This document shows positions 12,038 to 63,760 of a stretch of 64,000 bases of DNA, one piece after another; the stretch's first letter is position 1; each line of letters opens with the position of its first letter. The stretch spans positions 8,191,730 to 8,255,729 of the forward strand of contig CAIIXF020000007.1 of assembly GCA_903813345.2 (NCBI GenBank), read 5' to 3'. The notes under the pieces were generated by a model that saw nothing but the letters and a program-made list of their open reading frames with translations, did not search any database and was not told where the DNA came from. The position numbers and the translations under genes are program-made. This DNA comes from Owenia fusiformis (taxonomy: Eukaryota > Annelida > Polychaeta > Sabellida > Oweniidae).

Positions 12038-13836
12038 TCATTATTGTGTCTTTCTGAAACTAACAATAATGTGTTCAAATCCTAACTTGCGATCGCGACG
12101 GTTTCAATAACCAATCAACCATACTTAAATACATGGACAATTTACACTGGACCGTCAAAACCCGACGTCAGACACACCAAGTATGAAAGACACGTGAAGA
12201 AAATGCCAGACACGAGAATAATGAGACACGAATCAAGAAACACACAACTTGAATTGAGACACCAGTCGGTAACAGAGGCGCAACTGTATTTAGATCGACA
12301 ATATACCATTAAGTTGAAAACAACGTAAATTGATATTTCATTTAATTCAGTAATATGGAAATATTCTACAGTTCCATAAAATTGATTACTTCGAATTCAA
12401 GGCTCATCATTCGTTACATTTTCAGTCACCTTTCATCAATTTTTCTAATTGCTTGATGTGTTTATTGTTGCCGTCTTAATATGTGATGTAAAGGAACCCC
12501 GTTGTTTGTATATGCAAGTTTATCTCAAATTCATAATTACTCGGTAAATCGTAAACATATCCAATTATAGTGGATGATGAATTAATCCTTATGGACAGTA
12601 ACCGGGATCATCCCCACGTGCTCTGGTCCTGTGATTGAATAATCTTTCATACTATTCCATGTACTTATCCTATGCAAGCATTAATTAATATCAAATTCCC
12701 AAATAAAAAGCTAATTATCGTTGTATGACATCGCAGCCTCAGTTTTATAAGTTTTCTTCCTCGAAATTGCTAGTTGCGAAACAGAAAAGTACACCAAACA
12801 TCAAAATGGCTGATTTTGTTTTGTTGAGACATATTACCAAAAACACTGTAATACCTCACTCGATCCCACCATCATCCGAAATAGTATTAAACACTATGTT
12901 GATTAAAAAGTATGAAGATGGCGAAGAGGCTTGAAAAAGAGCTTGCGTGCATGATAGAACAGAGACTAGTCTTATGGCTTGATTGTCCAATCTTTTGGGA
13001 TTTTGTTTCTGGGAATGAATATTGCGCGCAAGTTCAAATAGCGTAATCCCGTAGCAGAAAATCACACCTTCCGATCCCAACATGTGAAATTAAAATGAAG
13101 AAGGGAATAATTATTCCTCTGCATGATGCTTCTTCTATGAAAAAACAATATTTCGTTTGTTTATTAAGCTCTTTGTCTTCTTGGTATACTGTTAAAAATG
13201 TTCCTACAGTTGTATGTGAAAAAAGTAACATCAACAATTCTTATGCAATGTTAAAAATTTTTGAAACATGAAAGGTAGTAGGCCTATTATGAAACATATT
13301 TATGCAATTTTACGCAGGGATATTGAAATGTTATGTGTTGGTAAAACAATTTAAAATCGTTTTTGAATAATGTAAATAGAATTTAATATGTAATAAATGT
13401 TTCACCAATCAACTAGTATTTATGTCATCCTTAAATAAATATGCATATAAAATATGAATATTGCAAAAACAAACAGGATTTCACTGAGGTCAGGAGAAAA
13501 ATTAATAGCGACCTTACGTCAGCTAAACGTAGGCAAATACAGGTAGGGAGTCGGGACGCATTGACATTTAGAGGGTTTGAAGGGTCTGAACTTATTTATT
13601 CCCCTCTTGTTATAAATAATTGTCGAATAAACAACTAATAAAAAACTAGTTATAAATATATTTCGAGAGTAGTATAAAAAGACACACAGGGGTGGCGAGC
13701 CATTCGAAACAATTGTTACTTTCAATAAAAATCTGATACCGTTTTATTTATTGTTGCATATCGCATATGTTGAGAATCACTTGAAGTTAAGTTTACAAGT
13801 ACAAATCGCTATTGTTCTTCTGGTAAACTCTTTCTG
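12038..13836. other. Intergenic, upstream of the mucin gene; no gene seen
   Basis: AT-rich. Short ORFs on both strands (12725-12934, 12856-13237, 13441-13725) overlap each other and show no conserved protein features. An AGACAC motif recurs several times at 12170-12265. Confidence 0.5.
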
Positions 13837-14039: not shown

Positions 14040-14984
14040 ATGAGCATGGCACTACAACGTGCCTTCACGAGATTAGTTATTTTTGTATATATTGTTACAG
14101 TATGTTTTGCTAAACCAAGGTAAGTTATTTTCGATTCGGATATGTCTTTAGTTTGAAAAAATAAATCAAAAAGTTTGTTTTAGAATAAAAGAACGTAATA
14201 TTAATGAATCACGTCTTTAAAATGATAGACTATTTAGTAGGTTAAAGGAAATGCATGCTCTATCTTTTAAGAAATCAAAACACTAGCTTATCATGATATA
14301 GGGCCGCAAATGTCTCCTCAAAAGAGTAATGTTTAAGTATCTAATGCTGAGTACAATGTAAATGAAAAATCTGTCAATTGTCGTACATTTGGAGTCTTCG
14401 TTGAAAAAGTTTACAGAATCTCGAATATTACATCTTTCGTTCAAATTTGATGAGTATAATTATAACTTGGGTTGGAAGTGTTTTTTTAAGTCGAATTTAT
14501 AAATATATAATTGAACTCAACGATTTTTCTAGCTTACTTTTGCATATTGTCGCAATCGAAATTAAGAATGTGCCCTTCCTTAAATAGTGCTCAAAAATAG
14601 GAGGTAAACTTTGATCAGTACAAAAAAACAAAATAAGCAGCAAAATAATTATTTGTCCAATATATTTCTAATGAAGACAGTTTTTAACTTTCAATTCAAA
14701 CACTTTCTTATTCTTATGGAGTTCACTAAATGAGAAGCGTAACAGACGCCGTATTCCATAAATATAAGTATCAATAGGACATTCCTCGAATAGAAATGAT
14801 CGTACGAAGGATGCAAATGAAATAAATGAACATAAGATTCTCACAAAGGAATTTTTGTCGTGTAAATATATACATATTTGTTAACTTATTATCTTTACAT
14901 TGTTCAATTCTATTTGCAGATCTGAAAATGTTGATTTCGAGCATAGACAACATCGTCGTCATAAGAGGGACGTTCAAGAAATAA
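14040..14984 (+). CDS. Exons 1-2: signal peptide and short propeptide with furin-type site
   Basis: Exon 1 (14040-14119) encodes a short basic start ([11 protein letters not shown]), a hydrophobic core ([13 protein letters not shown]) and a likely signal-peptidase site after CFA, then donor GTAAGT. The second ATG (14046) has a better Kozak context (A at -3, G at +4) and may be used instead. Exon 2 (14920-14984) reads [22 protein letters not shown] followed by D (residues 39-44) fits a furin/proprotein-convertase site, giving a propeptide of under 20 residues. Both exons are spaced far from the rest, as for many secreted proteins. Confidence 0.8.
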
Positions 14985-17900: not shown

Positions 17901-20900
17901 ATAACAACAACAAGACGACGAATCATTTTATTATTAATTGTTAAACTGTTTTTGTTTCTTTGTTTTTCAGTAAGGGGACCAGATCAAGGACCTCGTAAGT
18001 ATATTTTACCATGATATTAAATGATTTCCCGAAAATAGGTATAACGAGAGGGGCTTTGAGCGAAATAAAATGTGAGTTGAAATTAACTGTAAGTTTCAAT
18101 AAGTTACTCTAGATTTGGTCGTAATTTTTGTTGCTCTTGTAGATAACATTTTAAGAATACATGAACTAAATATTAATTTTACAATATGTGCAAATTTAGG
18201 TCACATTTTAAAATACATGAACTAAATATTAATTCTACAATGTCACGTGCTTATAATCGTCATTTCTTTAAAACATCTCGAAACGCCAACCATATCTTTA
18301 GTATTTTGTCACTTACATATTTGATAAGATAAGTTGTCTATTCTTGTATCGATATGTTATTGTAAAGTCGTCTTAGATACATAAAACCATAACAATGAAG
18401 GTATTTTACCATGTTAACATGATCGATTTTGAACAACCTTTCTAAAACAAGAAAAACATACATGGACGAAAATGAGTTACATGTATCGTTTTGTTATCAA
18501 CCTCTGAGGCACTTCAGATATTTCTATCTTTGCAAAATAGTAATAAACATGTTGATTTTTTAGAATGTAACATAAATCATATATTTGAAGTAACCACTGG
18601 CAAACAGCTATGAAATATTGGACTTGAAACAATAGTTTCAAAATACTTAAAGGCCACTTCTATAGGGTGTAACGATCTTACCATGGAACAATCCCATGTG
18701 ACGTCATTAGAGTCAATCTGACCTAAAAACGTGAAAAACATGCGGCTATTTTCATTTCTTAGTGTTCCTGTTCCTATGATGAAACTGTTTGTGTAAGCTT
18801 CGAGTTGTAAAACAAACACTCAATGATTATTTTGATATAAATTATACCGTCTTTATATGCCTTTAAAAGAACTAGATATATTTCGCTATTTATTCCATTC
18901 CTGTGTACTCTGGTTTAGATTAATTATAATCCTACCTCAAATTTGCTATCACCAAACATAGTGCCAAATATGAAAACCATCTTAGAACAAAGCATGTTAT
19001 AATTGAATTCCTTAAACGTCCCAATATTCGAATAGATATATATTCGAATAGATATTTATAAAGTGGATACCATTGGACACAGCTCAAATTATGAATTATA
19101 CATTTGAGATTTATACTTGTAAAACACAAATACTCCGTATCACGAGGTAGTTGCCACGTACGAGAACAACTCTATTAGACTAGCCTGGGACTATGTCATA
19201 TATCAAATACCCTTTTTATATTTTAATATTTGTAAAATCTGTCTCCGCCCAAGAGGTTGTCAACCTGGCAAGGTCAATGCTTAATACAATAAGTATTAAT
19301 TTGCACACTTATATTTTGACACTTTCACACTATAGCAAGATGTACTACCCTTGGTCAACATACAATTGTATTCAACTACCGTTCTTATGCGAAAAAATGA
19401 GTGCATTTCTATAAAAAAAATTAACAAAATACATGAAATTAATAAAATCATGAAATTTCTGCATTTGCGTTTATTTCAATTCATAAAAACTTTTCGAGGA
19501 CATTATTTTGCAAGAATATTGTGACATAATGCACTCATCGAGGTGTTACACGCATCTGACTTCTTTGACATTCTGAAATTGAAGATAATGCAAAGCTCAT
19601 GTTAGCCATTGTATTCATATGTCAAATTTCAAGATATAAGAACCATTTTGTGCCGTTCTCAATACGTTTTTCGATTGGCCCATAGTGTTAATAAATATTT
19701 GATTTCTTAAAAAATGACACAGTTTAAAATTGAGATACATTAAAAAATTGACAATACTTCAAGAACGCATTTTACTTTACTTCTTACAACTGCCCGGTCT
19801 ATAATATTTTGAAATATCAATTTTTATCTCATAATGTCAAAGACTCGATGTATCTCAGAAAACAAGTACCCAATACATCGATACTAATTATTTGTAAATA
19901 AGGGAGTTACCCAGGGGTCCACTTTTAATTAATGACAGACATAAGAATATTTACAAATATTGGAGTAATGTGCTTATTTCTTTCTGTGAAACATTGTCAA
20001 TGCTGCTGAGTTCACTGAAATATTCAGCTGAAATATCACAGTGTAATCAAGAACACGGACACTAAACAATCAACTCTTCACAAATGTTTATGAATATAGT
20101 GCATCTAGGCTTGTTAGTTTTACTAATCATTTAATGTCCAAACAAACTATGAGTGCGGTCATTTTAATAACACCCATCTGTGTTTGTGTTATGGAATATT
20201 TTGATACATGAACCACTTAGTAAGATCAGCAATGTAAGCGTGAGATTCCCGTTTAAGATAAAGGTATCCCTTGCATTCATGAACATAACTGGGATTAAGC
20301 TGCTATTCTCTCCCCAAACTTCAACTTAAATAATTACCAAAAAATGGATCTAGTATGTTTTGCATGTCTTTGAATCCTTTCAAAGAGTTATTGCTTGAAT
20401 GATGTTTTGGCCTCTCTCATTCATTCAATGGCAATCTGTAAAAAGCAATGCTCATCCAAGTGATGGAAGACAAAATAAAAAACAATATATTTTTGTATTT
20501 TTTCAGAAACTGGATGTTTAGATCCCCAGTCTCCCTCTAATGGAAGAGTTCAATGCGAAGACGACGGGTGGGATCTGTAAGTTTATGAAATTATATTTTT
20601 AATCTATGTTTATCATTAATCTAGTATAAGATAATTATAGAATAATCTACAATAACATTTTCCTACACGTTGCAATGCAACTGCATCCGAACAATTAAGT
20701 ATAATTGTATTGTAAGCGAAACGCAACAATAAATAACTCTATAGATATATTGACGTTAGGTACCCTATAATATCCACTTGAACATTTCTTTTCCAGAATC
20801 TGTACAGGGACCTGTCTCAGTGGTTGGTCTTTCCCAACGAGGGAAGACTCGATCCAGTTGATCTGTGATCACTATGACGGGAGCTGGCAGAATGATGCCA

Positions 20901-53900: not shown

Positions 53901-56900
53901 TTCTTCTGCAAATGTGCGGAAACAACACCTGCACCAACAACTCTTCCTACTGCAACAACACCAGGAGGTGAACAGTCAACACCATATACTGGACCGCCAG
54001 GTGCAACAACACCAGGAGGTGAACAGTCAACACCATATACTGGACCACCAGGTGCAACAACACCAGGCCCTGGAGGTGAGACAACTCCAGGTGTCGGAGA
54101 AAAGACAACTCCAGGTGTAGGAGAAAAGACAACACCAGGTGAAGGAGAAAAGACAACTCCAGGTGTAGGAGAAGAGACAACTCCAGGTGTAGGAGAAAAG
54201 ACAACCCCAGGTGTAGGCGAAAAGACAACTCCCGGTGTAGGAGAAGAAACAACTCCAGGTGTAGGAGAAAGGACAACACCAGGTGTAGGAGAAAAGACAA
54301 CCCCAGGTGTAGGCGAAAAGACAACTCCCGGTGTAGGAGAAGAAACAACTCCAGGTGTAGGAGAAAGGACAACACCAGGTGTAGGAGAAAAGACAACCCC
54401 AGGTGTAGGCGAAAAGACAACTCCCGGTGTAGGAGAAGAAACAACTCCAGGTGTAGGAGAAAGGACAACACCAGGTGTAGGAGAAAAGACAACTCCAGGT
54501 GTAGGAGAAGAAACAACTCCAGGTGTAGGAGAAAAGACGACCCCAGGTGTAGGAGAAAAGACAACCCCAGGTGTAGGAGAAGAAACAACTCCAGGTGTAG
54601 GAGAAGAGACAACTCCCAGTGTAGGAGAAACGACAACACCAGGTGTAGGAGAAAAGACAACACCAGGTGAGGTAGAGAAGACAACACCAGGTGTAGGAGA
54701 AGAAACAACTCCAGGTGTAGGAGAAGAAACAACTCCAGGTGAAGGAGAAAAGACAACACCAGGTGAGGTAGAGAAGACAACATCAGGTGAGGTAGAGAAG
54801 ACAACACCAGGTGTAGGAGAAAAGACAACTCCAGGTGTAGGAGAAGAAACAACTCCAGGAGTAGGAGAAAAGACAACACCAGGTGAGGTAGAAAAGACAA
54901 CTCCAGGTGAGGTAGAGAAGACAACACAAGGTGTAGGAGAAAAGACAACTCCTGGTGTAGGAGAAGAGACTACTCCCGGTGTAGGAGAAACGACAACACC
55001 AGGTGTAGGAGAAAAGACAACCCCAGGTGTAGGCGAAAAGACAACTCCGGGTGTAGGAGAAGAAACAACTCCAGGAGTAGGAGAAAAGACAACTCCAGGT
55101 GTAGGAGAAAAGACAACTCCAGGTGTAGGAGAAGAAACAACTCCAGGTGTAGGAGAAAAGACAACCCCAGGTGTAGGAGAAAAGACAACCCCAGGTGTAG
55201 GAGAAGAAACAACTCCAGGTGTAGGAGAAGAAACAACTCCAGGAGTAGGAGAAAAGACAACACCAGGTGTAGGAGAAAAGACAACACCAGGTGTAGGGGA
55301 AAGGACAACACCAGGAGGAGAGCAAACAACTCCAGGTGTAGGTGAAAAGACAACTCCAGGTGTAGGAGAAAAGACCACTCCAAGCTCTGGCGGTGAGACA
55401 ACTCCTGGAGGTGAACAGTCGACTCCAGGCACCACGGGTAAGTTAATTTTTAACTTGGTTAGGATTTATAGAGAAAAAATTATAAACATTATGTCTGACA
55501 TATGTTGCTGACATTACTTCATTAACTCACCATTTTGCTACCTAAACTTTTCTTACAGTTGAAGTTTGTCGAGAGATCATGGGAATAGAAAACGGACTGA
55601 TCACTGATGACATGTTCAGCGCATCCTCTGAGAAATCTCCCGAGCATGCTCCAGAGAGAGGCAGGCTGAACTTGGAGACTGACGGTGTTGGCGCTGGAGG
55701 ATGGACGCCCGCTGAATCTAACATAAACCAATGGATTCAGATTGACTTCCTGGAGCCAAGGATATTAACAGGAGTTACGATCCAGGGTAGAGATGGTGTA
55801 CCAACTTTCGTGACATCATTTGAAGTTATATTTTCATATGATGGACTCACCTGGACCAAATATGAAGAAACACCTGGTGTCGCCAAGGTACTGAATGCCA
55901 TCTGAGATTTTGATAAATAGTATTTAATGATTAAACATGTAGTTCTGATTAGCATTTTTGTATTTTGTAGTTAGTTTAGCTTTGGTTAATTTTTGTATAT
56001 TGTGCACCTTAGTGACTAAAATGTCATTGTAATGACATTAGAGAGTCTATAAAATATATATATACTTGTATATAATGTGCTGCGTGCATGGTTTAGAGTT
56101 GAAAGATCCACTCTTTCGGTCTATTGCTATCCAATGTGATCGTATTACACAAACAATGAGAAAAGTACATGTAAATGACAACAATCCCCAGTGGACTAAT
56201 AATTCTTTCGCGCGGTAATACAAATAAGAGCGATCCATTCAGCAAATTATTGTTTTTCGTATTTTAGGTGTTCCCTGGTAATACCGACAACGAAACTCCA
56301 GTCACTAACTGGTTCTACAAGCCCATCCGTGGCCAGTTCATCCGAATCGTGCCCCTCACTTGGAACCAAGCTATAAGCATCAGGCTGGAGATCCATGGCT
56401 GTTACGAACCATACCCAAGTATGTAAATGTTGCAATATTACTATGAATTACCATTTGCTTAAATTCCACACAGTTGAAAGCTGGTACCTTACACTAACTT
56501 AAGAAATATAGGATTTGATAATATGTTATATTAAGAATAATGATTATATATTCTTTCAATGTAAAATACATTTTCCCTGGAATTTTAAGAATCGTACAGA
56601 ATTGCTTGTTACACTGTTTAATTCAAAACGGAATTACATATTTTCAGCCAAACCTACAGGTACAGTTCCAACAACCACACCAGCTGTTACCACTCCAAAA
56701 ATCACCACACCAGGATCCACTACCACAACTACACCGTGGACAATGCCACGTAAGTACATTTTCAACTTTCATTTTATTCCAAAATTAGACAAATAATTCT
56801 CACTCAAGTATTGTCAAGAGTAGGCACAATAAATTGAACATTAGTGGCGATACAAGGTTTGCATGCGTGACATAATGGAGGTGGATTTTTGGTTGATGAA

Positions 56901-59900
56901 GTTCGTATGATGATCCATTTGAATAAATCCACCAGTCACTGTCTTACTGACACCATTTATACTTGGTCCCTGCATTTAGTTCGCACAATGTGCAGTACAT
57001 CTCCATTTGGTTTACTTGGAACGAACACCTAGTACTCATTGTAGCTCACCTCACTCATCCGTGCAATGGCGATTCACTGTGGTTGGGCCATTGATCATTT
57101 ATCTGATTTGTATTTAATTCTAGCCATGGAATGTGTTGAGTTTGAAGACTGGGTTAACACTGGGGCTGTGTCCCTGGAGGGTGACCTTGAACCTATAGAT
57201 GCAATCATTAATGTAACTCCCAACTGCCAGAACCCCATTGCTATACAGTGTAGGAAGGCATCGTCGGACAAGACACCACACTACAAGACTGGACAGGTAT
57301 ATTCTAAATAACTTGTCATTGTAATGTTAGTAAATGAATACTATGTTGGAACTAAATAATGATATGATATGATCGAAATAAGCAATGCAATGTAAAAGAC
57401 ATGATGCGATAGGATAAATGTTTTTATGTCAGCACTAGAAATGGTGATATCTTTTTTGTTGACGGCGGTTGGTGTTCGGCGTCTGTAACGAATGTAACAA
57501 ATGGCAGGTGATGACATTTTACATGTTTTGCATGTTTTACTTGCCTTGTTCTATGATATCTTGATACACATATATGAAAGTCTAACGATGTTATGTTATG
57601 TTATGATAAGTGATAAAGTATCATATAAGGTGTATTCATTTGTTACAGGTTGTTAGCTGCAACTTATGGGAAGGTCTATCGTGTAGACACGCTGACCAGC
57701 AAAACCAACCATTCTGTTACGATTATGAAGTAAGGCTAGGGTGTCTCATGCAAGTACCTGAATGTTGTAAGTAAATCAAGAATTTATAGAAGTGTTTATC
57801 ATCTGGGCTCTCTCAGTTCGAAGCCAATGAGAATTAGGTTATTCCGTAGTTCTACGTGTATCCATGGCGATAGCCGCGGTCCCTTTACCTTGATCGCAAG
57901 GACGGATAAAGGTCTGAAATATCAAAATGACATGTATGAAAGATGAAAGCCTGAGAATGAGCCTTCGGATTCTTAGGTTGTAAAATATCATACTTGCGCT
58001 CATTGAATTATGTCTGCCAAAAAATAGCAATATGTGCCATCTGACGAAATATGGTGTAGTATATTAAAGTCTGACTACTAAGAGTACTATTAATACATTT
58101 TGTTTTTTCAGTACCTTCGACTGCCACTCCAGGAACTACACCTACCGGTACTCCACCAATTGGTACCACACCAGCCAATGTGGATGTTTGCGAGAACGTC
58201 ACTGAGATTTCAGGCTGCCCTGCCTCGTGCCCTGAAGGCAAGTTTTGCGATGGTAAAGACTGCGTGAGCAGAATTGACTGCCCTTGCGTTATCAACAATC
58301 GATATGTTAAGGTAATATCTTTATTCTCTCGTTGCCATAGAAACTGATGACCATCATATTTTATGAAACGTTTCATATGATTCATTTTCATTACATTTAT
58401 TTCGATGGAAATACTGGCGTTAAAATGCAATAAAATTCGTCAACACATCATTGCATAAACTAGATACTATTGTACCAATGAACTAATTATTGCTAATTAA
58501 TCAAACCATCAAATCAAACCATTATTTCACAAATCTAATATCGCTATGAATACAACACAGATCATACAAAATTTGATGACTTAATTGATTCCAGCCTGGA
58601 GAGTTCTTTGAAACTGAGAACTGCGAGACGTGTACTTGTTTCAATGGCCAATTGAAATGTTATCCCAAAACAGAATGTCCACCTTGCCCCGATGGACAAA
58701 TGCCCAAACGAGACCAAGAGACACAATGTCAATGTACTTGTCTTCCGTGAGTATATTCATTTATTTAAGTTGAATTCAAGATCATATACATGACGTAAAA
58801 ATGGGTTTTTACTATAATCAACATTTAATCATAAAAAACACATCGAAATGGTTGATTTTACAGTTATACGACAGATAGAATACAACATGAAACCATACAT
58901 CAAAAAATGCCCAAAAACGTTCAACTTTCTTTTGACTAAAAGTCTCTTAATTCTCCAGTTGTGTTGATGGTGGATGGATGTGTGACAACTTTGAGTGTAT
59001 TCCACCTGAAGCAAGATGTGATGGTGTCATTGACTGCACTAATGATGAGTACGACTGTGGTAAGTCATTGTACCAACCATATTGTATTATATATGCTAGC
59101 CTAAGTACTGAAGCTTCTTCTATTATGACGTTCGGTTTATTTATAAAAACAAATATACTTTTTCTGCATTTGGTTGATTCATTTTGAACTAATTAATGCA
59201 TGGCTCTTGTTTTAGCAAGCACAACTGCAGCACCAACCACTACTCCACCGGTGTCGACTAGAAGCACTCCTTCGGGTACTGGAACAACTCCATCTGGTGT
59301 AGAGACAACACCTTCTGAAGGAGAATCCACGCCCTCTAAAGAAGAGACTACACCTGAAGGTGAGAAGACCACGCCCTCTGGTGTAGAGACTACGCCCTCT
59401 GGAGTAAAGACAACACCTTCTGGTGAGAAGACCACGCCCTCTGGTGTAGAGACCACGCCTTCAGGAGTAAAGACAACACCTTCAGGTGAAAAGACCACGC
59501 CCTCTGGAGGAGAGACTACACCTTCAGGTGAGAAGACCACGCCCTCTGGAGTAGAGACTTCACCTTCAGGTGAGAAGACCACGCCCTCTGGAGTAGAGAC
59601 TACACCATCTGGCAAGGAGACGACTCCAGAAGAAGGCAAGACAACTGGACCACCATCAGTGTCTGGCTCCACACCATCTGGCGAGGTGACAACACCATCA
59701 GGAGAGAAGACAACCCCATCAGGAGAGAAGACAACACCCTCAGGTGTAGAAACAACTCCAAAAGAGGAAACTCCGGGTACAATCAAAACTTGTCCCGTAT
59801 GTCCCACATTGATAGTGCCAGTTCTTAAACCTGGTGAAGTGGCTGTCATTAAAGAAATCCTCGGTGGGTGTTGCGAAGAGTATGAAGTCATTTGTAAACC

Positions 59901-62900
59901 TGATACGTGTCCCGAGGTTGACATCATTTGTGAGGCTCCAAAGAGAGTATATTCCATAATAGGAGAATGCTGCCAGGGCTTTGAATGTAAATGTCCACCT
60001 ATTGATGAATGTAACGTTACACCTGAACCGGAATGCCCACCTGGCTACCAGACCGTACAAAGGGTGGATGAATGTGGTTGTGTTAGCTACGAGAACTGCA
60101 GTAAGTAAATCAAATGAATCTAGTGTGTTGTTTTTCATCCCAAATAATTGTTTCAAACAGATATATATTTGACTAAATGGCGCTTTGAATTTATTAAGGA
60201 AAGGGCTCATTTCATAATGATAAGAGCTTCTACTTTAAAATGTGTTTGCGCCATGTTGTCTCAGCCGTATCTTTGTGAACCGACATTAAAGTTTAGCCTT
60301 CACAAAATTCATCTGGGGTTTGTCATTGCGATTCTAAATATCAGTATCAACATTTTACATTCTCTAGTCTTCTCTTACACATTAAAACAAAGGACAGACG
60401 AAAACGTGTAAAAATATTAAATTTCTACATTTAAGAATTATATTTGACTCACTTTAAACTGTGTTATTTCTTGACTTTTAGCTAAACAATCAGTATGTAT
60501 CATCAGAAGCACATATACATACGACGAAGAGGGCAACCAAGTTCCAAGACCAGAGCCTATTACCATTGTCAAGCAGGTAAGAGTTCATTTATAAATAATT
60601 TGGGAATATGGTCGTGGTGCAAATGGAGTCATGGTATAATCAGATTAATTTTAGGTTAACATGGAATGACAGGGAGGTGCCCCGACATCAATATATAATG
60701 CATGAGGCTTTGAAAATAAAGAATTCTTGAATATTATATGTTTAAACAAATTATTTTTATTTATACTTTTGTAGCCTGGAGAGACGTGGGACGAGGGAGA
60801 TTGCAGGAGCTGTGAATGTACAGCTAGTCCATCTGGCATCCCTGGTGAATACGAACCACTATGTTCTGAACAGACATGTCCCGCCCCACCACCAGTAAGT
60901 TCTAAAGACTGAATACATTTGTAGTCATTCAATGATTTAGTTTTGATTTTCCATTAGCGCTTGCTCGCTAGACCTTGACAATTGTATGAACCAGTTGCTA
61001 CTTATATACATTCAAACAGTTATCCATAAAAGTGATGAACTGAATAGTACATTTTGTTTAATCATATTTTTCTAGCACCAATACGTCATTCTTTGTTATA
61101 ACATTTTTCTGTCCTGACGTTTAGGCATATGACCTTGGAGATAAGATTCCCGGGGAATGTTGTAGACCACTTGTGAAGAATCGATGTATCATCAGGATTG
61201 ATGGTGAAGACGAGACATTCAATGTAAGTTCTTGCAATCACTTTGATTCAACTATTGATTCATAGCATTGATATTTAGAATGACTTTTCAAAAGCATTTG
61301 ATAAGGTTTGCTTATTATTTTATTTAGTAGTTAAAACTAATCTTAGTACAATTTACTATTCATTATTGTGAAGCTAGACCTGTGGTGTAATTTGGTATAT
61401 CTAAAAGTGGAATAAAACGTGTCTTCTATTATTTTTAAATATACTTTTATCTCATGGAACTAATCTTTCATACTCGGCAATATGTTTGAATTTTGATTTG
61501 GCTAGACCCTGACAGGAAATTTTGTTATTTCATATCTTAATTCTGCCATGAATTTTTTATTTTTATAAAGGTTGATGATGAGTGGAGTAACCCAGACACA
61601 CCTTGTGTATCATACAAGTGTGTCCGTAGTCCCGATGGAGATGCCATTGTTGAAACAGCCACCGGACTCTGCTGTGTCGTCAACGGCATATCATATCAGG
61701 TGAATATGAACGGGATGTCTAAAAGTATTTTCAAAGACGGGTTTTATTAAATCCACCAAACTCTGTTTGTTAGAAGTCATAGATGGTTTGGGTTCGTCAA
61801 CGCCCGATCATTAATCAGAACATAAATCTTACATATCAAGCTGTATATAACTTTAAGCTATGATTCTATTTCTTTACACACCTTGTACATGACAATTACA
61901 TATTTATGGAACAAACATTTGAAAGAAAGTAGAGATCAGACTATTGATGATTACAAAATGATTGCAGCCTGGTGAGATGATCCCATCAAACAGGACTTGC
62001 TATGAGGCTATCTGTGATGCTTCTGAGCATGGAGCCCTTGTAATAGAGTCTACCATCAACTGTGTGCCACCAAATAGGACATGTGCCCAGGTAAACTCTC
62101 AAGTTTGATTATTTACCATTTTTAAGTTGGAACAAGTATTTTAGTGGGCAGTGAATCGAAATACAGATTATACTCACGTGTAAAGCGTCATGTATGACAA
62201 ATTAATGAGAAAAAGTATTATGACCTGTACCCATGATAACCTTTCAAGTCTGATTAGTTGCCATATAGTGTGCATCCTCCTAAGCAGGTGTCATATTCTG
62301 GATTTTGAAGCCCTGTGATCGGAGGATGTATAGTGTGCAGTAAATCAAAATAAAGACTATGCTCATGTGGAAACCGGATTGTATGACAACTTATTGATGA
62401 AGTGGAGGCTTAATTTAATAAATAGCTTTAATTCATGTTTCTTTGTATATGTTGCAGGGTGAAGATCCTGTTGATGAGAGTGGATGTTGTAGGAAATGTA
62501 TACCCAGTAAGTTTAATTTTTGGTCAATACACTTGGGTTACCGTTTATACGGGTCACAACAGATTACAATTGTGTGGAAGTTTACTTGATTTAATTAATT
62601 CACGTTATTGCAGGAAATAACAAAGGGTTAATGTTATCTGGGTAGGTAATATTATCTACGATTAAGCAGATCATATATTTGGTACTGAAAAATTGAATTC
62701 GATCAATAGCATACACAGGATCAACGTTGATATTGTAATAATCAATCAGTACCTAACATTATATAAATTTATGTAGAACACCTGTAGAATATATTGCCTC
62801 AATCTGTAAATCTTGAAAACTGAAACAGACCGATATATCTTAAACACCTTTCTCTTCTTCAGGTGAACCAAAAGTATGTGATACCTGTAGACCAGTTCTT

Positions 62901-63194
62901 GTGTTTGGACAGCCTCAGGATTCTATTGGCTACCTGACTTCCGAAAAACAAGGAATGCTTTGCTCAAATAAGGATGTTGTTGACGGATTCTACGAGTGCT
63001 CTGGATTCTGCGACTCGCGCGCACAATACTCCACGTGGACAATGGCGTTCGTTAATGACTGTGATTGTTGCCAACCAAGAAAAACTGAGAGTAAATTTAT
63101 TACATTGACTTGCGATGATGGTTCAACCATAACAAAGAGCTACCAAGTCCCAAGCGAATGTGGTTGTGGCGCATGTACCGGTGCAAGGAGATGA
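14040..63194 (+). CDS. Giant secreted gel-forming mucin-like protein (63 exons, ~8,534 aa)
   Basis: Spliced CDS read from GT-AG sites and domain continuity. Exons: 14040-14119, 14920-14984, 17971-17994, 20507-20576, 20797-20921, 21268-21363, 21865-22056, 22340-22936, 23363-23490, 23771-23936, 24125-24356, 24484-24829, 25038-25344, 25564-25734, 25929-26166, 26370-26675, 26912-27159, 27498-27682, 27945-28207, 28525-28655, 28885-29179, 29289-30007, 30107-31021, 31335-31516, 32914-33066, 33156-33300, 33863-35188, 35343-36728, 36916-38091, 38190-38422, 38753-38906, 39104-39260, 39494-39996, 40524-40680, 40839-41341, 41858-42014, 42173-43404, 43742-43852, 43998-44239, 44464-45583, 45707-47596, 47808-49346, 49690-49863, 50180-50290, 51105-51233, 51487-51594, 51778-55437, 55559-55887, 56268-56418, 56648-56749, 57124-57296, 57649-57766, 58112-58311, 58595-58746, 58959-59059, 59216-60100, 60482-60576, 60775-60894, 61125-61223, 61571-61699, 61968-62090, 62458-62506, 62863-63194. 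The sum is 25,605 nt (divisible by 3). Order: signal peptide, sushi/EGF, three VWD-C8-TIL units, PTS repeats with 14 WxxW and 5 discoidin domains, LDLa-like, VWC-like region, CTCK. The family (gel-forming mucins, VWF) is secreted and disulphide-multimerised; that role here is inferred. A split into two genes cannot be excluded without RNA data, but phases match at every junction. Confidence 0.88.
14985..17970 (+). other. Intron 2 (about 3.0 kb), no feature seen
   Basis: AT-rich sequence without a supported exon, repeat or RNA gene. Short ORFs on both strands (for example 16672-16906 and 17382-17582) show no recognisable protein and no splice logic. It may hold enhancers, but nothing in the sequence shows one. 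Confidence 0.6.
17971..17994 (+). CDS. Exon 3: 24-nt microexon
   Basis: A polypyrimidine tract and TTTTTCAG precede a 24-nt exon ending at donor GTAAGT. It joins in phase between exons 2 and 4 and encodes IRGPDQGPQ at its junctions, a short linker after the furin-type site. Its length is a multiple of three, so skipping it would keep the frame; this is the least certain of the N-terminal exons. Confidence 0.6.
18146..18243. repeat. Local direct duplication in intron 3
   Basis: The segment ACATTTTAAGAATACATGAA followed by CTAAATATTAATT occurs at 18146 and again, nearly unchanged, at 18203, about 57 bp later. The rest of intron 3 (17995-20506) shows no feature I can support. Confidence 0.6.
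20507..20921 (+). CDS. Exons 4-5: sushi-like (CCP) module
   Basis: Two exons (20507-20576, 20797-20921; residues ~57-121) read [15 protein letters not shown], then a stretch containing [21 protein letters not shown] and YPACV. The cysteine pattern and the GxW near the end fit a sushi/complement control module, divergent because of an extra cysteine pair (CTGTC). Such modules mediate protein binding. It stands before the EGF and second sushi modules, an N-terminal extension that VWF and vertebrate gel-forming mucins lack. Confidence 0.7.
21268..21363 (+). CDS. Exon 6: EGF-like domain
   Basis: A single phase-1 symmetric exon (residues ~122-153) encoding [18 protein letters not shown] and [12 protein letters not shown]. 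Six cysteines in EGF spacing and the CxNGGxC core are diagnostic. The calcium-binding D/N-x-D/N-E/Q start is absent, so it is a non-calcium EGF module. Confidence 0.9.
21865..22056 (+). CDS. Exon 7: sushi (CCP) domain
   Basis: One phase-1 symmetric exon (residues ~154-217) with four cysteines, [27 protein letters not shown] and PDCVP. The order C-x-C-GY-C-GxW-C is the standard sushi signature. Confidence 0.85.
22340..22936 (+). CDS. Exon 8: linker and first VWD domain (D1)
   Basis: After a Pro-rich linker ([14 protein letters not shown]), a VWD domain starts at [20 protein letters not shown] (residues ~246-405). It keeps the KTFD motif, the CGLCG motif ([11 protein letters not shown]) and the downstream calcium-site pattern [13 protein letters not shown] in the D1 and D2 domains of VWF is needed for interdomain disulphide multimerisation. 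The exon ends at a GTAATA donor within ENFDG; reading on would meet a stop at 22960, so the splice is required. Confidence 0.9.
23363..23936 (+). CDS. Exons 9-10: C8 domain 1
   Basis: Exons 23363-23490 and 23771-23936 (residues ~417-514) encode [29 protein letters not shown], then [13 protein letters not shown] and [10 protein letters not shown] ending NWRSGQTC. This is the C8 pattern that follows each VWD domain in VWF and mucins (P...ACxxDxC...Y...C...W). Confidence 0.85.
24125..24356 (+). CDS. Exon 11: TIL domain 1
   Basis: Residues ~515-592 read [20 protein letters not shown], then [20 protein letters not shown] and CLKPNECPC. Trypsin-inhibitor-like cysteine-rich pattern with the typical C-x-C-PxG and the C-terminal ECPC, followed by a VWC-like tail (QDCNTW) that continues into exon 12. 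Confidence 0.88.
24484..25344 (+). CDS. Exons 12-13: second VWD domain (D2) and start of C8-2
   Basis: Exons 24484-24829 and 25038-25344 (residues ~592-809). [19 protein letters not shown] is the hallmark VWD start, including a GDPH tetrapeptide. Later motifs are [19 protein letters not shown] and [15 protein letters not shown]. The first cysteine of CGLCG is replaced by leucine (TLGLCG), unlike D1. The exon 13 end begins the C8 domain ([10 protein letters not shown]). Confidence 0.9.
25564..25734 (+). CDS. Exon 14: C8 domain 2
   Basis: Residues ~810-866: [20 protein letters not shown], then [26 protein letters not shown] and TPCG. Complete C8 second half following VWD2; the exon is phase-1 symmetric. 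Confidence 0.88.
25929..26166 (+). CDS. Exon 15: TIL domain 2
   Basis: Residues ~867-946: [38 protein letters not shown] and [12 protein letters not shown]. Canonical TIL after C8-2. Confidence 0.88.
26370..26675 (+). CDS. Exon 16: TIL domain 3 (D' equivalent)
   Basis: Residues ~946-1048: tail of the preceding VWC-like segment ([10 protein letters not shown]), then [38 protein letters not shown] and [13 protein letters not shown]. Standing between the second and third VWD domains, it occupies the position of D' in VWF and gel-forming mucins. Confidence 0.85.
26912..28207 (+). CDS. Exons 17-19: third VWD domain (D3) and start of C8-3
   Basis: Exons 26912-27159, 27498-27682, 27945-28207 (residues ~1048-1280). 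[18 protein letters not shown] opens the VWD domain; [16 protein letters not shown] and [16 protein letters not shown] follow. CGLCG is reduced to EGLCG. The GDPH motif is absent (GSSH). The end of exon 19 ([18 protein letters not shown]) begins C8-3. Confidence 0.9.
28525..28655 (+). CDS. Exon 20: C8 domain 3
   Basis: Residues ~1280-1323: [39 protein letters not shown] and LC. Ends at donor GTAAGT, in phase with the TIL exon that follows. Confidence 0.85.
28885..29179 (+). CDS. Exon 21: TIL domain 4 with VWC-like tail
   Basis: Residues ~1324-1422: [35 protein letters not shown] and [18 protein letters not shown], ending DPCQVW at the splice. This completes the D3 assembly. The open frame upstream of 28885 (from 28692) is intronic: a clear TTTAG acceptor precedes the first TIL cysteine. 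Confidence 0.82.
29289..30007 (+). CDS. Exon 22: first PTS segment, WxxW domain 1, start of WxxW 2
   Basis: After [15 protein letters not shown] comes a Thr/Pro/Gly-rich segment (about 80 residues), the first likely O-glycosylated stretch. WxxW domain 1 (29575-29856) starts [15 protein letters not shown], continues [18 protein letters not shown] and [13 protein letters not shown] second short PTS segment leads to WxxW 2 ([15 protein letters not shown], from 29959), which is split by a phase-1 intron after its first 18 residues. WxxW is a known C-mannosylation motif in mucin Cys domains. Confidence 0.88.
30107..31021 (+). CDS. Exon 23: rest of WxxW 2, PTS, WxxW domain 3
   Basis: Completes WxxW 2 (to 30327; [26 protein letters not shown]), then a PTS segment rich in TGTPG, then WxxW 3 (30730-31012; [27 protein letters not shown]). 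Donor A/GTAAGT at 31022. WxxW 2 is the only intact copy interrupted at this early position. Confidence 0.87.
31335..33300 (+). CDS. Exons 24-26: discoidin (F5/8 type C) domain 1
   Basis: Exons 31335-31516, 32914-33066, 33156-33300 (residues ~1967-2126). [59 protein letters not shown] and [19 protein letters not shown], ending LGC. This is the discoidin fold pattern: initial C, QWIQVDF, VTQGR, W, final C. Members bind carbohydrate, phospholipid or matrix proteins. Three exons here, against two in the other copies; the first intron carries a mariner-like insertion. Confidence 0.9.
31617..32736 (+). mobile_element. Degraded mariner/Tc1-superfamily element with very long inverted repeats
   Basis: Starts CAGGGTGGGCC (31617) and ends GGCCCACCCTG (32736), each flanked by TA, the Tc1/mariner target. 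The two ends are imperfect inverted repeats of about 350 bp (31617-~31970 and ~32385-32736). Between them a plus-strand frame (32024-32212) encodes [13 protein letters not shown] and [17 protein letters not shown], matching the C-terminal catalytic half of a Tc1/mariner transposase, with 37 residues between the two visible acidic residues (DD37D-like). The N-terminal half is missing, so it is non-autonomous. Confidence 0.88.
32024..32212 (+). pseudogene. Transposase C-terminal fragment (mariner-like)
   Basis: A 62-residue remnant ending at TGA, with QQD and SPDxNxxDYxxW motifs of the DDE/D catalytic domain. No start codon, no upstream catalytic Asp and no DNA-binding domain remain. It lies inside the inverted-repeat element in a mucin intron and cannot be active. 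Confidence 0.8.
33301..33862. repeat. Intron 26 with dispersed-repeat copy and ~110-bp degenerate tandem units
   Basis: Positions 33366-33455 match a dispersed family (ATGTCACCACCA ... TTGGTGGTTGGCGTCTGTAAC) also seen at 2401, 3435 (reversed) and 57425. Then three degenerate units of ~110 bp run from ~33510 to 33800, each with a version of GTTCTCAGAAGCTCAAATCTGACTTTA and GACCTTCTCAAGGTCAAAAA. Confidence 0.65.
33863..35188 (+). CDS. Exon 27: PTS repeat array and WxxW domain 4
   Basis: One 1,326-nt phase-1 symmetric exon. It has no methionine before 34918, but the frame is open throughout. The PTS part repeats a 52-residue (156-bp) unit at 34111, 34267, 34423 and 34579, nearly identical, with core motifs [17 protein letters not shown] and [18 protein letters not shown]. 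WxxW 4 (34891-35184) reads [30 protein letters not shown] and [12 protein letters not shown]. Confidence 0.88.
34111..34734 (+). repeat. 156-bp coding minisatellite (4 units) in exon 27
   Basis: Successive GGAACAACACCAACTGAAGT starts are at 34111, 34267, 34423 and 34579, exactly 156 bp apart, encoding a 52-residue unit. An older diverged copy precedes the array (~33955-34110). Confidence 0.92.
35343..36728 (+). CDS. Exon 28: WxxW 5, PTS array, WxxW 6
   Basis: Phase-1 symmetric. WxxW 5 (35444-35712): [46 protein letters not shown] array follows with the same 156-bp unit as exon 27 (for example starts at 35945 and 36101), with PGPETPG instead of PGPGTPG. WxxW 6 (36473 to the splice) starts [14 protein letters not shown]; its final Cys codon is split across the intron (T at 36728, GT at 36916-36917). 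Confidence 0.88.
36916..38091 (+). CDS. Exon 29: PTS, variant WxxW 7, PTS array
   Basis: Short PTS, then WxxW-type domain 7 (37191-37472): [45 protein letters not shown]. The second Trp of WxxW is Tyr here (WTRY), removing the C-mannosylation motif. Then a PTS array with a 189-bp (63-residue) unit, starts 37746 and 37935; it is the 52-residue unit plus an 11-residue insert ([11 protein letters not shown] type). Confidence 0.88.
38190..38906 (+). CDS. Exons 30-31: TIL-like plus VWC-like pair, copy 1, short PTS
   Basis: Exon 38190-38422: [50 protein letters not shown]. Exon 38753-38906: [20 protein letters not shown] and NCATTPGC, then a short Thr/Pro tail. It resembles a TIL domain with its VWC-like extension, but with an extra inserted segment. 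Exons 39-40 carry a second copy with the intron at the same place. The last donor is weak (GTTTGG at 38907) but is the only one that keeps phase with exon 32. Confidence 0.78.
39104..39996 (+). CDS. Exons 32-33: discoidin domain 2 (tandem copy A) and PTS tail
   Basis: Exons 39104-39260 and 39494-39996. [77 protein letters not shown]; then a TGTPGTG tail. A complete F5/8 type C domain. Its intron (233 bp) is longer than those of copies B and C, and its loop reads DYPGELAK against DNPGEPPK in the others, so it is the most diverged of the three. Confidence 0.9.
40524..41341 (+). CDS. Exons 34-35: discoidin domain 3 (tandem copy B) and PTS tail
   Basis: Exons 40524-40680 and 40839-41341; the same domain, exon lengths (157 and 503 nt) and splice phases as copy A. 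Reading past the donor at 41342 meets a stop within ten codons (SKKCLIYS), so intron retention would truncate the protein. Confidence 0.9.
41858..43404 (+). CDS. Exons 36-37: discoidin domain 4 (tandem copy C), PTS array, WxxW 8
   Basis: Exon 41858-42014 and the first part of 42173-43404 repeat copy B almost exactly. Instead of ending after the short PTS tail, exon 37 continues into two 189-bp PTS units (starts 42693 and 42882) and WxxW 8 (43127-43398): [37 protein letters not shown]. Duplication of the cassette therefore ended inside a PTS-coding region shared with exon 29. Confidence 0.9.
43742..43852 (+). CDS. Exon 38: short Thr/Pro/Ser exon
   Basis: A 111-nt phase-1 symmetric exon with acceptor TTTTTTCAG and donor GTATGT, encoding [20 protein letters not shown] and more of the same. 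It is richer in serine and poorer in glycine than the big arrays. It can be skipped without frame change. Confidence 0.75.
43998..45583 (+). CDS. Exons 39-40: TIL-like/VWC-like pair copy 2, PTS array, WxxW 9
   Basis: Exon 43998-44239: [50 protein letters not shown]; exon 44464-45583 opens [20 protein letters not shown]. This mirrors exons 30-31, with the intron at the same codon. A PTS array of a 63-bp unit follows ([14 protein letters not shown] type), then WxxW 9 (45320-45579): [26 protein letters not shown]. Confidence 0.88.
44635..45200 (+). repeat. 63-bp coding minisatellite in exon 40
   Basis: GGTACACCAGGCACTG starts recur at 44698, 44761, 44824 and onward every 63 bp for about eight units, encoding a 21-residue Thr/Pro/Gly unit with a single Glu. 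Units are almost identical, implying recent expansion. Confidence 0.92.
45707..47596 (+). CDS. Exon 41: PTS array, WxxW 10, PTS, WxxW 11
   Basis: A 1,890-nt phase-1 symmetric exon. First a TGTPGTG array with a 78-bp (26-residue) unit; WxxW 10 (46591-46872): [30 protein letters not shown]; a different PTS segment ([10 protein letters not shown] type) that anticipates the repeats of exon 42; WxxW 11 (47260-47541): [24 protein letters not shown]. Donor GTGAGC at 47597. Confidence 0.9.
45985..46440 (+). repeat. 78-bp coding minisatellite in exon 41
   Basis: GAAACGGGAC recurs at 46063, 46141, 46219, 46297 and 46375, exactly 78 bp apart. The unit contains [19 protein letters not shown]. Confidence 0.92.
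47808..49346 (+). CDS. Exon 42: three four-cysteine modules, PTS arrays, start of a fourth module
   Basis: Three ~41-residue modules with four cysteines: 47864-47983 ([20 protein letters not shown]), 48044-48169 and 48578-48700. Consensus C-x-Y-N-G-x-F-Y-x-P-G-s-T-I-E-E-x-x-C-H-x-v-x-C-x-E-N-G-x-i-x-x-G-D-Y-y-x-k-P-x-C. Two PTS arrays separate them (48232-48530, 48771-49260) with an 11-residue repeat, [11 protein letters not shown] alternating with [11 protein letters not shown]. The exon ends inside module 4 ([11 protein letters not shown]) at a phase-1 donor. Confidence 0.87.
48232..49260 (+). repeat. 33/66-bp coding minisatellites in exon 42 (two blocks)
   Basis: Blocks 48232-48530 and 48771-49260 repeat a 33-bp unit. 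In the second block the units pair into a 66-bp dimer in which a Glu-bearing (TGEPGV) and an Arg-bearing (TGRPGG) unit alternate. Confidence 0.9.
49690..51594 (+). CDS. Exons 43-46: four-cysteine modules 4 to 6, each split by a phase-1 intron
   Basis: Exons 49690-49863, 50180-50290, 51105-51233, 51487-51594. Module 4 spans 49316-49781, module 5 49833-50271, module 6 51203-51578. Each is cut after xPG: exon ends in FY-x-PG type sequence, next exon starts [18 protein letters not shown] or a close variant. Thr/Pro linkers join modules. Module 5 has a degenerate start ([11 protein letters not shown]). All exons are phase 1-1. Confidence 0.83.
50804..50843. repeat. Hairpin in intron 44
   Basis: TCAGAGTCTCTC (50804-50815) pairs perfectly with GAGAGACTCTGA (50832-50843) across a 16-nt loop. 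The adjacent TCTGATAAATCAGAATGC also occurs near 4755, so it may be the edge of a dispersed inverted-repeat element. The rest of the intron (50291-51104) shows nothing else. Confidence 0.6.
51778..55437 (+). CDS. Exon 47: variant WxxW 12, long 8-residue repeat array, WxxW 13, second array
   Basis: A 3,660-nt phase-1 symmetric exon. Domain 12 (51870-52142): [46 protein letters not shown]; the second Trp is Glu (WTEE). Array 1 (52518-53560) is about 40 copies of [24 protein letters not shown]. WxxW 13 (53634-53915) is intact: [29 protein letters not shown]. Array 2 (54079-55385) is about 50 more copies. Thr-Thr-Pro supplies O-glycan sites, PGVG resembles elastin, and Lys/Glu alternate at a fixed position. 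Confidence 0.9.
52518..55385 (+). repeat. 24-bp coding minisatellites in exon 47 (two arrays)
   Basis: The 24-bp unit reads roughly ACAACTCCAGGTGTAGGAGA followed by AAAG or AGAG. Arrays run 52518-53560 and 54079-55385, separated by WxxW 13. Units mix three main types (GVGEK, GVGEE, GEVEK) in higher-order blocks repeated within each array. Confidence 0.93.
55559..56418 (+). CDS. Exons 48-49: discoidin (F5/8 type C) domain 5
   Basis: Exons 55559-55887 and 56268-56418 (residues ~7483-7642): [78 protein letters not shown]. Closer to a typical F5/8C domain than copies A-C. Its single intron matches the second intron of discoidin 1, not the intron of copies A-C. Confidence 0.9.
56648..57766 (+). 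CDS. Exons 50-52: Thr/Pro exon and degenerate WxxW 14
   Basis: Exon 50 (56648-56749) is a 102-nt Thr/Pro exon. Exons 51-52 (57124-57296, 57649-57766) hold a diverged WxxW-type domain: [45 protein letters not shown] and [10 protein letters not shown]. The first Trp of WxxW is Phe (FEDW). It is the only WxxW-type copy with an intron in its second half. Confidence 0.82.
57425..57492. repeat. Dispersed-repeat copy in intron 51
   Basis: GTTGACGGCGGTTGGTGTTC and GGCGTCTGTAAC match the family at 2401, 3435 (reverse) and 33366. Confidence 0.6.
58112..58746 (+). CDS. Exons 53-54: TIL-like and VWC-like pair
   Basis: Exon 58112-58311 has a Thr/Pro start, then [40 protein letters not shown]; exon 58595-58746 starts [18 protein letters not shown] and continues [12 protein letters not shown]. 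The exon boundary falls at K/PGE, the same position as in VWC segments of SCO-spondin-like proteins and of exon 58 here. Residues ~7774-7890. Confidence 0.78.
58959..59059 (+). CDS. Exon 55: LDL-receptor class A-like module
   Basis: [20 protein letters not shown] followed by [10 protein letters not shown] fits an LDLa module: cysteine spacing, CIPxxxRCDG, and the acidic calcium cluster with NDE in place of SDE. It is followed at once by a PTS exon. Residues ~7891-7924. Confidence 0.82.
59216..60100 (+). CDS. Exon 56: final PTS array and start of the cysteine-rich C-terminus
   Basis: The first two thirds repeat a 7-residue (21-bp) unit, TTPSGVE alternating with TTPSGEK (~59281-59760). Then a cysteine-rich segment: [65 protein letters not shown]. 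The paired CC and CxC elements resemble the region preceding the cystine knot in VWF, SCO-spondin and hemocytin. Confidence 0.88.
60482..62506 (+). CDS. Exons 57-62: VWC-like cysteine-rich tail
   Basis: Exons 60482-60576, 60775-60894, 61125-61223, 61571-61699, 61968-62090, 62458-62506 (residues ~8220-8424). Motifs: [74 protein letters not shown]. These are VWC-like repeats (PGExW...C..C.C, then CC) with most introns at phase 0. An alternative acceptor at 61074 was rejected because its frame hits a stop. Confidence 0.83.
62863..63194 (+). CDS. Exon 63: C-terminal cystine knot (CTCK) and stop
   Basis: Residues ~8425-8534: [73 protein letters not shown]. The CxGxC-like element (CSGFC), the CxCC cluster and the final CxCxxC are the CTCK pattern that drives disulphide dimerisation in VWF and gel-forming mucins. 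Confidence 0.92.
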
Positions 63195-63660: not shown

Positions 63661-63760
63661 TGTAGTGGCTAGCCCTTATGGCTGAGGGGTAGAGCATTTG
63701 ACTCTGAGAGAGGTCCTGGGTTCGATTCCCGTACGGGACATCGAATTTAGCACATTCTCT
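63661..63760 (+). repeat. tRNA-derived SINE head or tRNA pseudogene
   Basis: A perfect Pol III A box (TGGCTGAGGGG, 63679-63689) and B box (GGTTCGATTCC, 63719-63729) stand 40 nt apart, as in tRNAs. The D arm and T loop are recognisable, but the anticodon stem is broken (TTTGACTCTGAGAGAGG) and the acceptor arms pair poorly. It is therefore more likely a SINE or pseudogene than a working tRNA. The sequence after it, to 64000, shows nothing I can name. Confidence 0.65.

Follow-up and report, generated by a model that had tools for sequence, protein, structure and literature searches.

The vertebrate gel-forming mucins MUC2, MUC5AC and MUC5B have the D1-D2-D'-D3 order, linking cysteines in D3, CysD (WxxW) domains within PTS stretches and a C-terminal cystine knot (CTCK). 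Hemocytin/hemolectin also carries a CTCK. In insects, as far as the descriptions in PMC4015701 and PMC9643190 go, this protein combines VWD-C8-TIL units with discoidin domains.

The Ciona protein Ci-GFM1 is an invertebrate gel-forming mucin scaffold of 2,880 aa, with D4 present, a PTS stretch of just 50 residues and an additional ligand domain, which binds chitin (PMC6109156). Section 9 of that paper gives 13 domain types, and neither discoidin nor CysD is named among those listed there. A 2022 paper places the association of CysD with PTS in the deuterostomes, according to the relevant passage (PMC9169620).

The gene described here was found in a stretch of 64,000 nucleotides from the annelid Owenia fusiformis, called the window below (contig C7, 8191730-8255729). 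It shares with the vertebrate mucins all the features mentioned above, the linking cysteines by alignment. Unlike them, it has five discoidin domains, a sushi/EGF head, and TIL/VWC modules plus six small cysteine-rich modules in the arm; no D4 was found, and its PTS is rich in glycine. It has 14 CysD domains, compared to seven in MUC5B and nine in MUC5AC, as counted in PMC9169620. It resembles insect hemocytin in the association of VWD-C8-TIL units and discoidin domains, but adds CysD domains and long PTS stretches, and the discoidin domains are interleaved with CysD (the comparison with hemocytin is by description only). The likeness to Ci-GFM1 lies in the scaffold, the linking cysteines (putative in the window protein) and the added ligand domain: the chitin-binding domain of the Ciona protein is a precedent for a ligand domain on a gel-forming mucin scaffold. 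Our preferred reading, which we consider probable, is that this is a single gene for a secreted gel-forming mucin, whose chains polymerise through disulfides and whose glycosylated arm includes discoidin domains.

A dynamic programme that scores splice sites and codons gives, on the + strand, a chain of 62 exons from 14040 to 63194, which adds up to 25,572 nt and encodes 8,523 aa uninterrupted by any stop. Its parts are the following.

14040..14119, + strand: exon 1, start and signal peptide (hydrophobic ATG exon with donor; start imposed)
14920..14984, + strand: exon 2, short propeptide with the furin-like site RHKR|DV (translation; exon chosen by hand)
20507..22056, + strand: exons 3-6, sushi-like, EGF-like and sushi domains (Pfam for EGF_2 and the second sushi; cysteine pattern for the first sushi)
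22340..24356, + strand: D1 assembly, with VWD, C8 and TIL (Pfam; PDB)
24484..26166, + strand: D2 assembly, with VWD containing GDPH (24548-24559), C8 and TIL (Pfam; PDB)
26370..26675, + strand: D' (TIL' and E'; three TIL stretches in the segment; PDB)
26912..29179, + strand: D3 assembly, with VWD, C8, TIL and putative equivalents of the intersubunit cysteines (Pfam; alignments)
29289..31021, + strand: end of D3, first PTS, CysD 1-3 (Pfam, genome profile search, alignment)
31335..33300, + strand: exons 23-25, discoidin (F5/8C) domain 1 (Pfam, 71.9 bits)
33863..38091, + strand: exons 26-28, PTS repeats (units of 126, 156 and 189 nt) and CysD 4-7 (repeats, CysD alignment)
38190..38906, + strand: TIL-like and VWC-like pair (TIL 19.8 bits, below the cut-off)
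39104..42485, + strand: exons 31-36, discoidin domains 2-4, near-identical, with short PTS linkers (Pfam, copy comparison)
42486..43404, + strand: rest of exon 36, PTS (189-nt units) and CysD 8 at 43125-43382 (repeats, alignment)
43742..44239, + strand: short PTS exon and second TIL-like module (translation; TIL 24.2 bits for a cut-off of 24.5)
44464..47596, + strand: VWC-like module, PTS (63- and 39-nt units), CysD 9-11 (repeats, alignment)
47808..51594, + strand: six short cysteine-rich modules of about 42 aa (VWC/Fn1-like, weak) and PTS (33-nt units) (translation; weak Pfam)
51778..55437, + strand: exon 46, CysD 12-13 and a long PTS of 24-nt units (repeats, alignment)
55559..56418, + strand: discoidin domain 5 (Pfam, 97.9 bits)
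56648..57766, + strand: PTS and CysD 14, the latter split by an intron (Pfam, 70.4 bits)
58112..59059, + strand: TIL/VWC-like module and LDLa-like module (VWC 22.3 bits for a cut-off of 27.6; LDLa 20.6 for 24.1)
59216..62506, + strand: last PTS and cysteine-rich VWC-like C-terminal stretch (repeats, Pfam)
62863..63194, + strand: last exon, C-terminal cystine knot and stop (PF00007, 27.8 bits for a cut-off of 24)

The first half of the protein thus reads signal peptide, propeptide, sushi-like, EGF, sushi, D1, D2, D', D3, CysD 1-3, discoidin 1, PTS with CysD 4-7, TIL/VWC, discoidin 2-4, PTS and CysD 8; it continues with TIL/VWC, PTS with CysD 9-11, the six cysteine-rich modules with PTS, CysD 12-13 with PTS, discoidin 5, CysD 14, TIL/VWC/LDLa, PTS, a VWC-like stretch and the cystine knot. 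The domain order, the open chain and the homology of D1-D2-D'-D3, CysD, F5/8C and CTCK to the known domains are what the sequence shows.

The codon table of the programme was trained on forward exons picked by eye. Left free, the programme starts the chain at 13454 and ends it at 63685, and at a higher intron penalty it returns 15040-63194; the 62 exons were obtained by imposing the start at 14040 and the end at 63194. The second exon preferred by the programme at high intron penalty (17975-17994) was replaced by hand with 14920-14984. Between 8 and 20.5 kb, no hydrophobic ATG exon other than exon 1 has a good donor at the thresholds of this analysis; a further ATG of the same frame lies at 14046. 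In the chosen run, 59 of 62 exons are identical at all four intron penalties (8, 10, 12 and 14). Those in doubt are exon 2 and two long exons, 27 and 46; both long exons are split by a short intron in the run with the lowest penalty. In bases 100-63000, 2.5% of the GT and 2.2% of the AG dinucleotides exceed the median splice scores of the model. The reverse strand scores 1,976, compared to 4,243 for the forward strand, which is a partial control since the codon table is forward-trained. There are 23 rows of tandem repeats in the window; 21 of them fall in exons of the model, and each of these has a period divisible by three, although the rows overlap and do not amount to 21 independent tests. 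The first-pass annotation, made by a model from the letters alone, had proposed an open chain of 25,605 nt and 8,534 residues which gathers mucin, discoidin and CTCK modules; the chain is indeed free of stops at the length obtained here, and the mixture of modules is confirmed by both the splice programme and the domain matches.

Tandem repeats are also seen in non-coding DNA, with a 105 bp unit at 1314-1622, upstream of the gene, and a 116 bp unit at 33494-33801, in the intron before exon 26. A comparison of the window with Rfam gave no family at its gathering score.

We hold it very likely that 14040-63194 is one gene, which would be read as a single transcript. The single chain scores 4237.3, compared to 4212.4 when it is split at 31068/31274, and 14 units of this gap are the start-and-gene penalty; the margin is modest and does not settle the question alone. 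The split would correspond to two genes, or to two promoters: the first product would be a D1-D2-D'-D3-CysD3 protein which ends at 31068, the other a second secreted protein starting at 31274 or 31280, with discoidin domains, 11 CysD and the CTCK. Besides the small difference in score, this arrangement has in its favor a hydrophobic peptide located before exon 23 and in frame with this discoidin exon, which scores 3.1, compared to 3.0 for the signal peptide of exon 1, and which is the most hydrophobic of the six in-frame ATG extensions found at 61 acceptors. But 7 out of 166 acceptor frames that the model leaves unused also have a hydrophobic ATG extension, compared to 1 of its 61 acceptors; one is thus expected by chance. 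Moreover, the space between the two genes would be only about 205 bases, there is no AATAAA or ATTAAA in 27831-31531 whereas 32 of the 61 introns contain one, and the first product would be devoid of the dimerisation knot. We therefore regard two genes as improbable. Hydrophobic ATG exons with a donor occur at similar densities along the gene (20 starts in 20.5-62.8 kb) and upstream of it (6 in 13.9 kb).

Other partitions were discarded. When the gene penalty is set to zero, the optimum (+1.4 units) is a cut at 28663/28887 with a tiny frame at 63862; it was rejected because it separates C8 from TIL inside D3. Gene bonuses of 20 or 60 shred the region into many tiny frames and are uninformative.

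The first-pass annotation counts as a refutation of its single mixed gene any transcripts that stop after the D3 region and before the discoidin or CTCK exons. Such transcripts would not undo the association of CysD with discoidin: the two kinds of domains alternate along the chain, and no single gene break separates them.

The D1-D2-D'-D3 block (about 1,180 residues) aligns in one stretch with MUC5B (657 bits), MUC5AC (649 bits), VWF (612 bits) and MUC2 (608 bits). The alignment to MUC5B spans residues 3-1181 of the query, with D1, D2, D' and D3 in order. FCGBP has a higher total (693 bits), but it comes from eight separate stretches. Within MUC2, the D3 segment is closest to D3 (221 bits, compared to 112 for D1 and 117 for D2).

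MUC2 forms its D3 dimers through two cysteines, C1088 of C8-3 and C1130 of TIL-3, both of which are missing in D1 and D2, as reported in the relevant part of PMC6739602. Likewise, the alignments place an extra cysteine at each of the two linking positions in the D3 of the window, and at neither in its own D1 and D2. The first one is aligned with the cysteines of MUC2, MUC5AC and VWF. The second one pairs with the cysteine of MUC5AC only, across a gap and with low column confidence; it faces a tyrosine at the last aligned position of MUC2, and the alignment to VWF ends one residue earlier. At the other end of the chain, the knot matches the CTCK of VWF (4nt5) with an E-value of 8.6e-7, CDCC here corresponding to CSCC in VWF. 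The linking cysteines of the VWF knot are C2771, C2773 and C2811; the partners of the first two are present, and that of the third is a candidate shifted by two residues. In Ciona, all five such cysteines are retained, which section 9 of PMC6109156 uses as an argument for polymer formation.

The motif GDPH occurs once in the whole chain, in D2, at the position given above. It is a known site of autocatalytic Asp-Pro cleavage in VWD domains, and MUC2 has it in D4, as described in PMC10880436. The predicted autocatalytic cleavage in the window protein would thus take place within the part that templates assembly. Only three VWD domains were found in the window, with no fourth one and no D4 assembly. 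Since D4 is present in MUC2, MUC5 and VWF but absent in MUC6 and MUC19, it is not defining for all gel-forming mucins. The absence of D4, and of a VWA match in the segments scanned, speaks against the protein being von Willebrand factor itself.

Pfam was run on 20 segments, which include a minor part of the PTS, 3 of the 14 CysD and one of the near-identical discoidin copies 2-4. It recovered three VWD, three C8, TIL, one sushi above the cut-off, F5/8C, WxxW and the cystine knot. The genome profile search and the alignment each count 14 WxxW domains in the window. The six cysteine columns are invariant in all 14, W-x-x-W is intact in 11, and 12 of them lie within one exon. One CysD was compared to a CysD of MUC5B and gave an E-value of 3.4e-15. 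The chain contains long stretches rich in threonine and proline, which are candidates for O-glycosylation; in 17 sampled stretches (3,584 residues), the composition is 30% Thr, 23% Gly, 20% Pro and 5% Ser.

The mucin reading relies on the homology of the D block, the putative linking cysteines, the CTCK, the 14 CysD, the PTS, the F5/8C domains and the repeats that keep the frame. Against it stand the modest margin of the one-gene score, the low-confidence pairing of the second D3 cysteine, the absence of D4, the shifted candidate for the third linking cysteine of the VWF knot, and a PTS rich in glycine and poor in serine. Much of what the first-pass annotation had listed is recovered, namely the three VWD-C8-TIL units, the 14 WxxW and five discoidin domains and the CTCK. 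Its interpretation, one chain of mucin-type CysD and PTS with discoidin and CTCK, is supported, and its suggestion that the protein may gel is well supported by the D block and the predicted linking cysteines; the membrane binding that it also proposed is weak.

A different reading is that the gene is the hemocytin/hemolectin of the worm, a product of blood cells which serves in clotting or in the aggregation of bacteria and in which the mucin-like parts are secondary. Drosophila hemolymph lacking the discoidin domain of hemolectin failed to aggregate bacteria, as reported in the corresponding part of PMC4015701. If the one-gene model is correct, VWD-C8-TIL, discoidin and CTCK are together in one chain, and the window is the only place, among the scored matches in the genome, where VWD and F5/8C are found on one strand within 100 kb. 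However, the 14 CysD and the long PTS are mucin hallmarks, and the discoidin domains are scattered through the arm. Hemocytins are not known to have CysD and long PTS. We consider this reading unlikely and keep that of a gel-forming mucin.

The genome search covered 498 Mb in 525 contigs and gave 78 scored matches for VWD, 50 for WxxW and 149 for discoidin (150 of 152 VWD candidates and 150 of 269 discoidin candidates were scored). Among the scored matches, the pairs VWD and WxxW, VWD and discoidin, and WxxW and discoidin occur on one strand within 100 kb only in the window. At 150 kb, one more neighborhood with VWD and discoidin on the same strand appears among the scored matches (C6:27.14-27.27 Mb), while within 100 kb, on opposite strands, they include VWD with discoidin at C2:31.4 Mb and VWD with WxxW at C4:1.41-1.50 Mb. 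Matches to the full WxxW profile (1-88) were obtained only in the window, for 12 of its 14 domains. The 36 WxxW matches found elsewhere all start at profile position 21 or later (at least 21), which an intron could also cause.

On the - strand of C10, at 28.49-28.63 Mb, there is an array of 21 WxxW matches, which start at profile position 21-32 and do not have the N-terminal W-x-x-W part in that exon. The C4 neighborhood combines four WxxW matches of the - strand (1.43-1.50 Mb) with adjoining VWD matches of the + strand (1.41-1.42 Mb). At C1:55.42-55.49 Mb, the VWD matches are inside single open frames of 8,849, 7,135 and 1,952 residues; these VWD genes are giant and apparently intron-poor.

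The five F5/8C domains are located at 31335-33300, from 39104, from 40524, from 41858, and at 55559-56418. The structures nearest to copy 2 in the PDB are those of FVIII, FV and neuropilin. In FVIII, particular loops form the hydrophobic spikes that enter the lipid membrane; at the positions of these loops, the alignment of copy 2 is shortened or polar. Since the spikes of FVIII are not conserved, membrane binding is unsupported, and lipid-binding discoidin domains were set aside. The proposal of the first-pass annotation that the protein could bind glycans or membranes thus survives in part: it is reasonable to suppose, given these domains, that some ligand is bound, such as a glycan, collagen or a bacterial surface.

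The discoidin copies 2-4 are 91-98% alike over the 503 nt of their second exon. Copies 2 and 3 have exons that match at 151 of 157 and 492 of 503 positions, yet introns (233 and 158 nt) that are unalignable (91 matches, 67 mismatches and 75 gap columns). On the contrary, copies 3 and 4 have a common intron (153 of 158 positions), and the second exon shows 42 differences between them over 503 positions, of which 34 are in the PTS linker. This suggests that copy 4 arose from copy 3 by a tandem duplication of 1,334 bp, and that copy 2 was subject to homogenisation limited to the exons. The ratios of silent to changing codons between copies are 9:7, 12:19 and 12:15 (219 codons each, PTS linker included). 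There is no excess of silent changes, so the differences between copies do not prove that the protein is under selection.

The high similarity of the discoidin copies and the very repetitive nature of the locus could point to an artefact, either a pseudogene or a chimera of the assembly. But no stop interrupts the 8,523 codons, the repeat periods keep the frame, the copies do differ, one of them having an altogether different intron, and the window contains no N. An artefact is extremely improbable.

In the head of the protein, the second sushi domain is clear (PF00084, 22.8 bits for a cut-off of 20.7). The first one has no Pfam match and was recognised by its cysteine pattern only, and EGF_2 is near its cut-off of 22.1, with 19.0 bits in one Pfam run and 22.5 in another. 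The sushi/EGF N-terminus and the complement-type modules announced in the first-pass annotation therefore come down to one clear sushi domain, next to an EGF which is also found in two SCO-spondin-type genes. The LDLa-like module is seen as announced, but below the Pfam cut-off (see the list). For three of the six modules of 42 aa, AF2 gave a model with pLDDT 78 and pTM 0.46. Foldseek returned 288 matches to this model at E-values up to 10, the best ones being MUC2 D3 (0.3) and the VWC of CCN3 (1.5). Because none was at or below 0.001, these modules are labelled as weakly VWC/Fn1-like.

The two SCO-spondin-type genes were assigned by eye. They are on C7, at 30.93 and 35.74 Mb, and consist of an EGF and D1-D2-D'-D3 head followed by LDLa, as well as TSP1 in the first gene. 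They share with the window gene, and with SCO-spondin, the N-terminal EGF and the D1-D2-D'-D3 order, so that the EGF head looks like a family trait and is probably old in the family. In these two regions (50 and 40 kb), the kept tblastn matches include no CysD and one weak F5/8C match (E-value of 0.001) on the other strand. In the first gene (C7:30.93-30.98 Mb), a stretch with many LDLa-like repeats of about 121 bp can be seen by eye, at about 29.5-33.7 kb of the joined stretch.

The window gene could then be seen as encoding an SCO-spondin-like or adhesive matrix protein and not a mucin. The common head, read by eye and not by Pfam, goes in this direction. So do the adhesives: the limpet protein P-vulgata_3 has VWD, TIL, C8 and LDLa, and separate sea-star adhesives, among them Sfp, have VWD or FA58C, according to the sections on these proteins (PMC7333891 and PMC9382459, respectively). 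These adhesives are secreted like the product of the window gene and share VWD and TIL or FA58C with it, partly in different proteins, and WxxW goes unmentioned in the main texts of the two papers. In the chain, however, CysD and PTS dominate, there is no TSP1 in the 20 segments scanned (most of the PTS lies outside the scan), and LDLa is represented by one weak match. We find an SCO-spondin-like or adhesive protein very improbable.

A gel-forming mucin with discoidin domains could work as follows. The signal peptide would be removed and the short propeptide possibly trimmed by furin. The CTCK domains would join the chains tail to tail, and the D1-D2 beads would template head-to-head disulfides between D3 domains. 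The Thr-rich PTS stretches may be O-glycosylated and swell, while the 14 CysD domains may serve as docking points between beads or as cross-links between chains. As for the five discoidin domains and the small TIL, VWC and LDLa modules, they would be the hands which hold ligands and fix the gel to its target; bacteria, glycans, collagen, tube material and particles are candidates. Judging from the sequence, the polymer, the gel, its ligand and the tissue in which it is made can be proposed at this level only. Such a protein would be a natural example on which to design a gel that carries its own binding domains.

The presence of 14 CysD among PTS in a protostome is counter to the placement of this association in deuterostomes, as it is stated in PMC9169620. 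Among the open-licence papers listed in the literature searches, none was found to describe a gel-forming mucin combined with discoidin domains, and none contained both terms WxxW and FA58C. Gel-forming mucins as such are already known, and other animals may well have the combination with discoidin. It might be that the architecture is ancestral to bilaterians, a polymerising D1-D2-D'-D3/CTCK protein with both CysD and discoidin, from which vertebrate mucins lost discoidin and arthropod hemocytin lost CysD; we regard this as quite unlikely. If it were true, a single parent gene would be the source of both mucus gels and hemolymph clots. Should there be orthologues with the same order, one could directly test how the mucus-forming and the clot-forming members of the VWD proteins parted, and the window gene may shed light on the relationship between mucus and clotting proteins.

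Finally, a cluster of homeodomains is present on C1, at 17.97-18.47 Mb. One homeodomain is followed by KLTGP, which we take to be the Lox5 parapeptide of spiralians; two have Ubx-like tails and one is of the Post2 type (these names were assigned here). A Post1-type homeodomain is located apart from the cluster, at C1:56.85 Mb. These Hox genes identify the genome as that of a spiralian with near certainty; a search for COX1 gave no match. The corresponding passage of PMC9977687 places the Hox cluster of O. fusiformis on chromosome 1, with Post1 downstream of the cluster.
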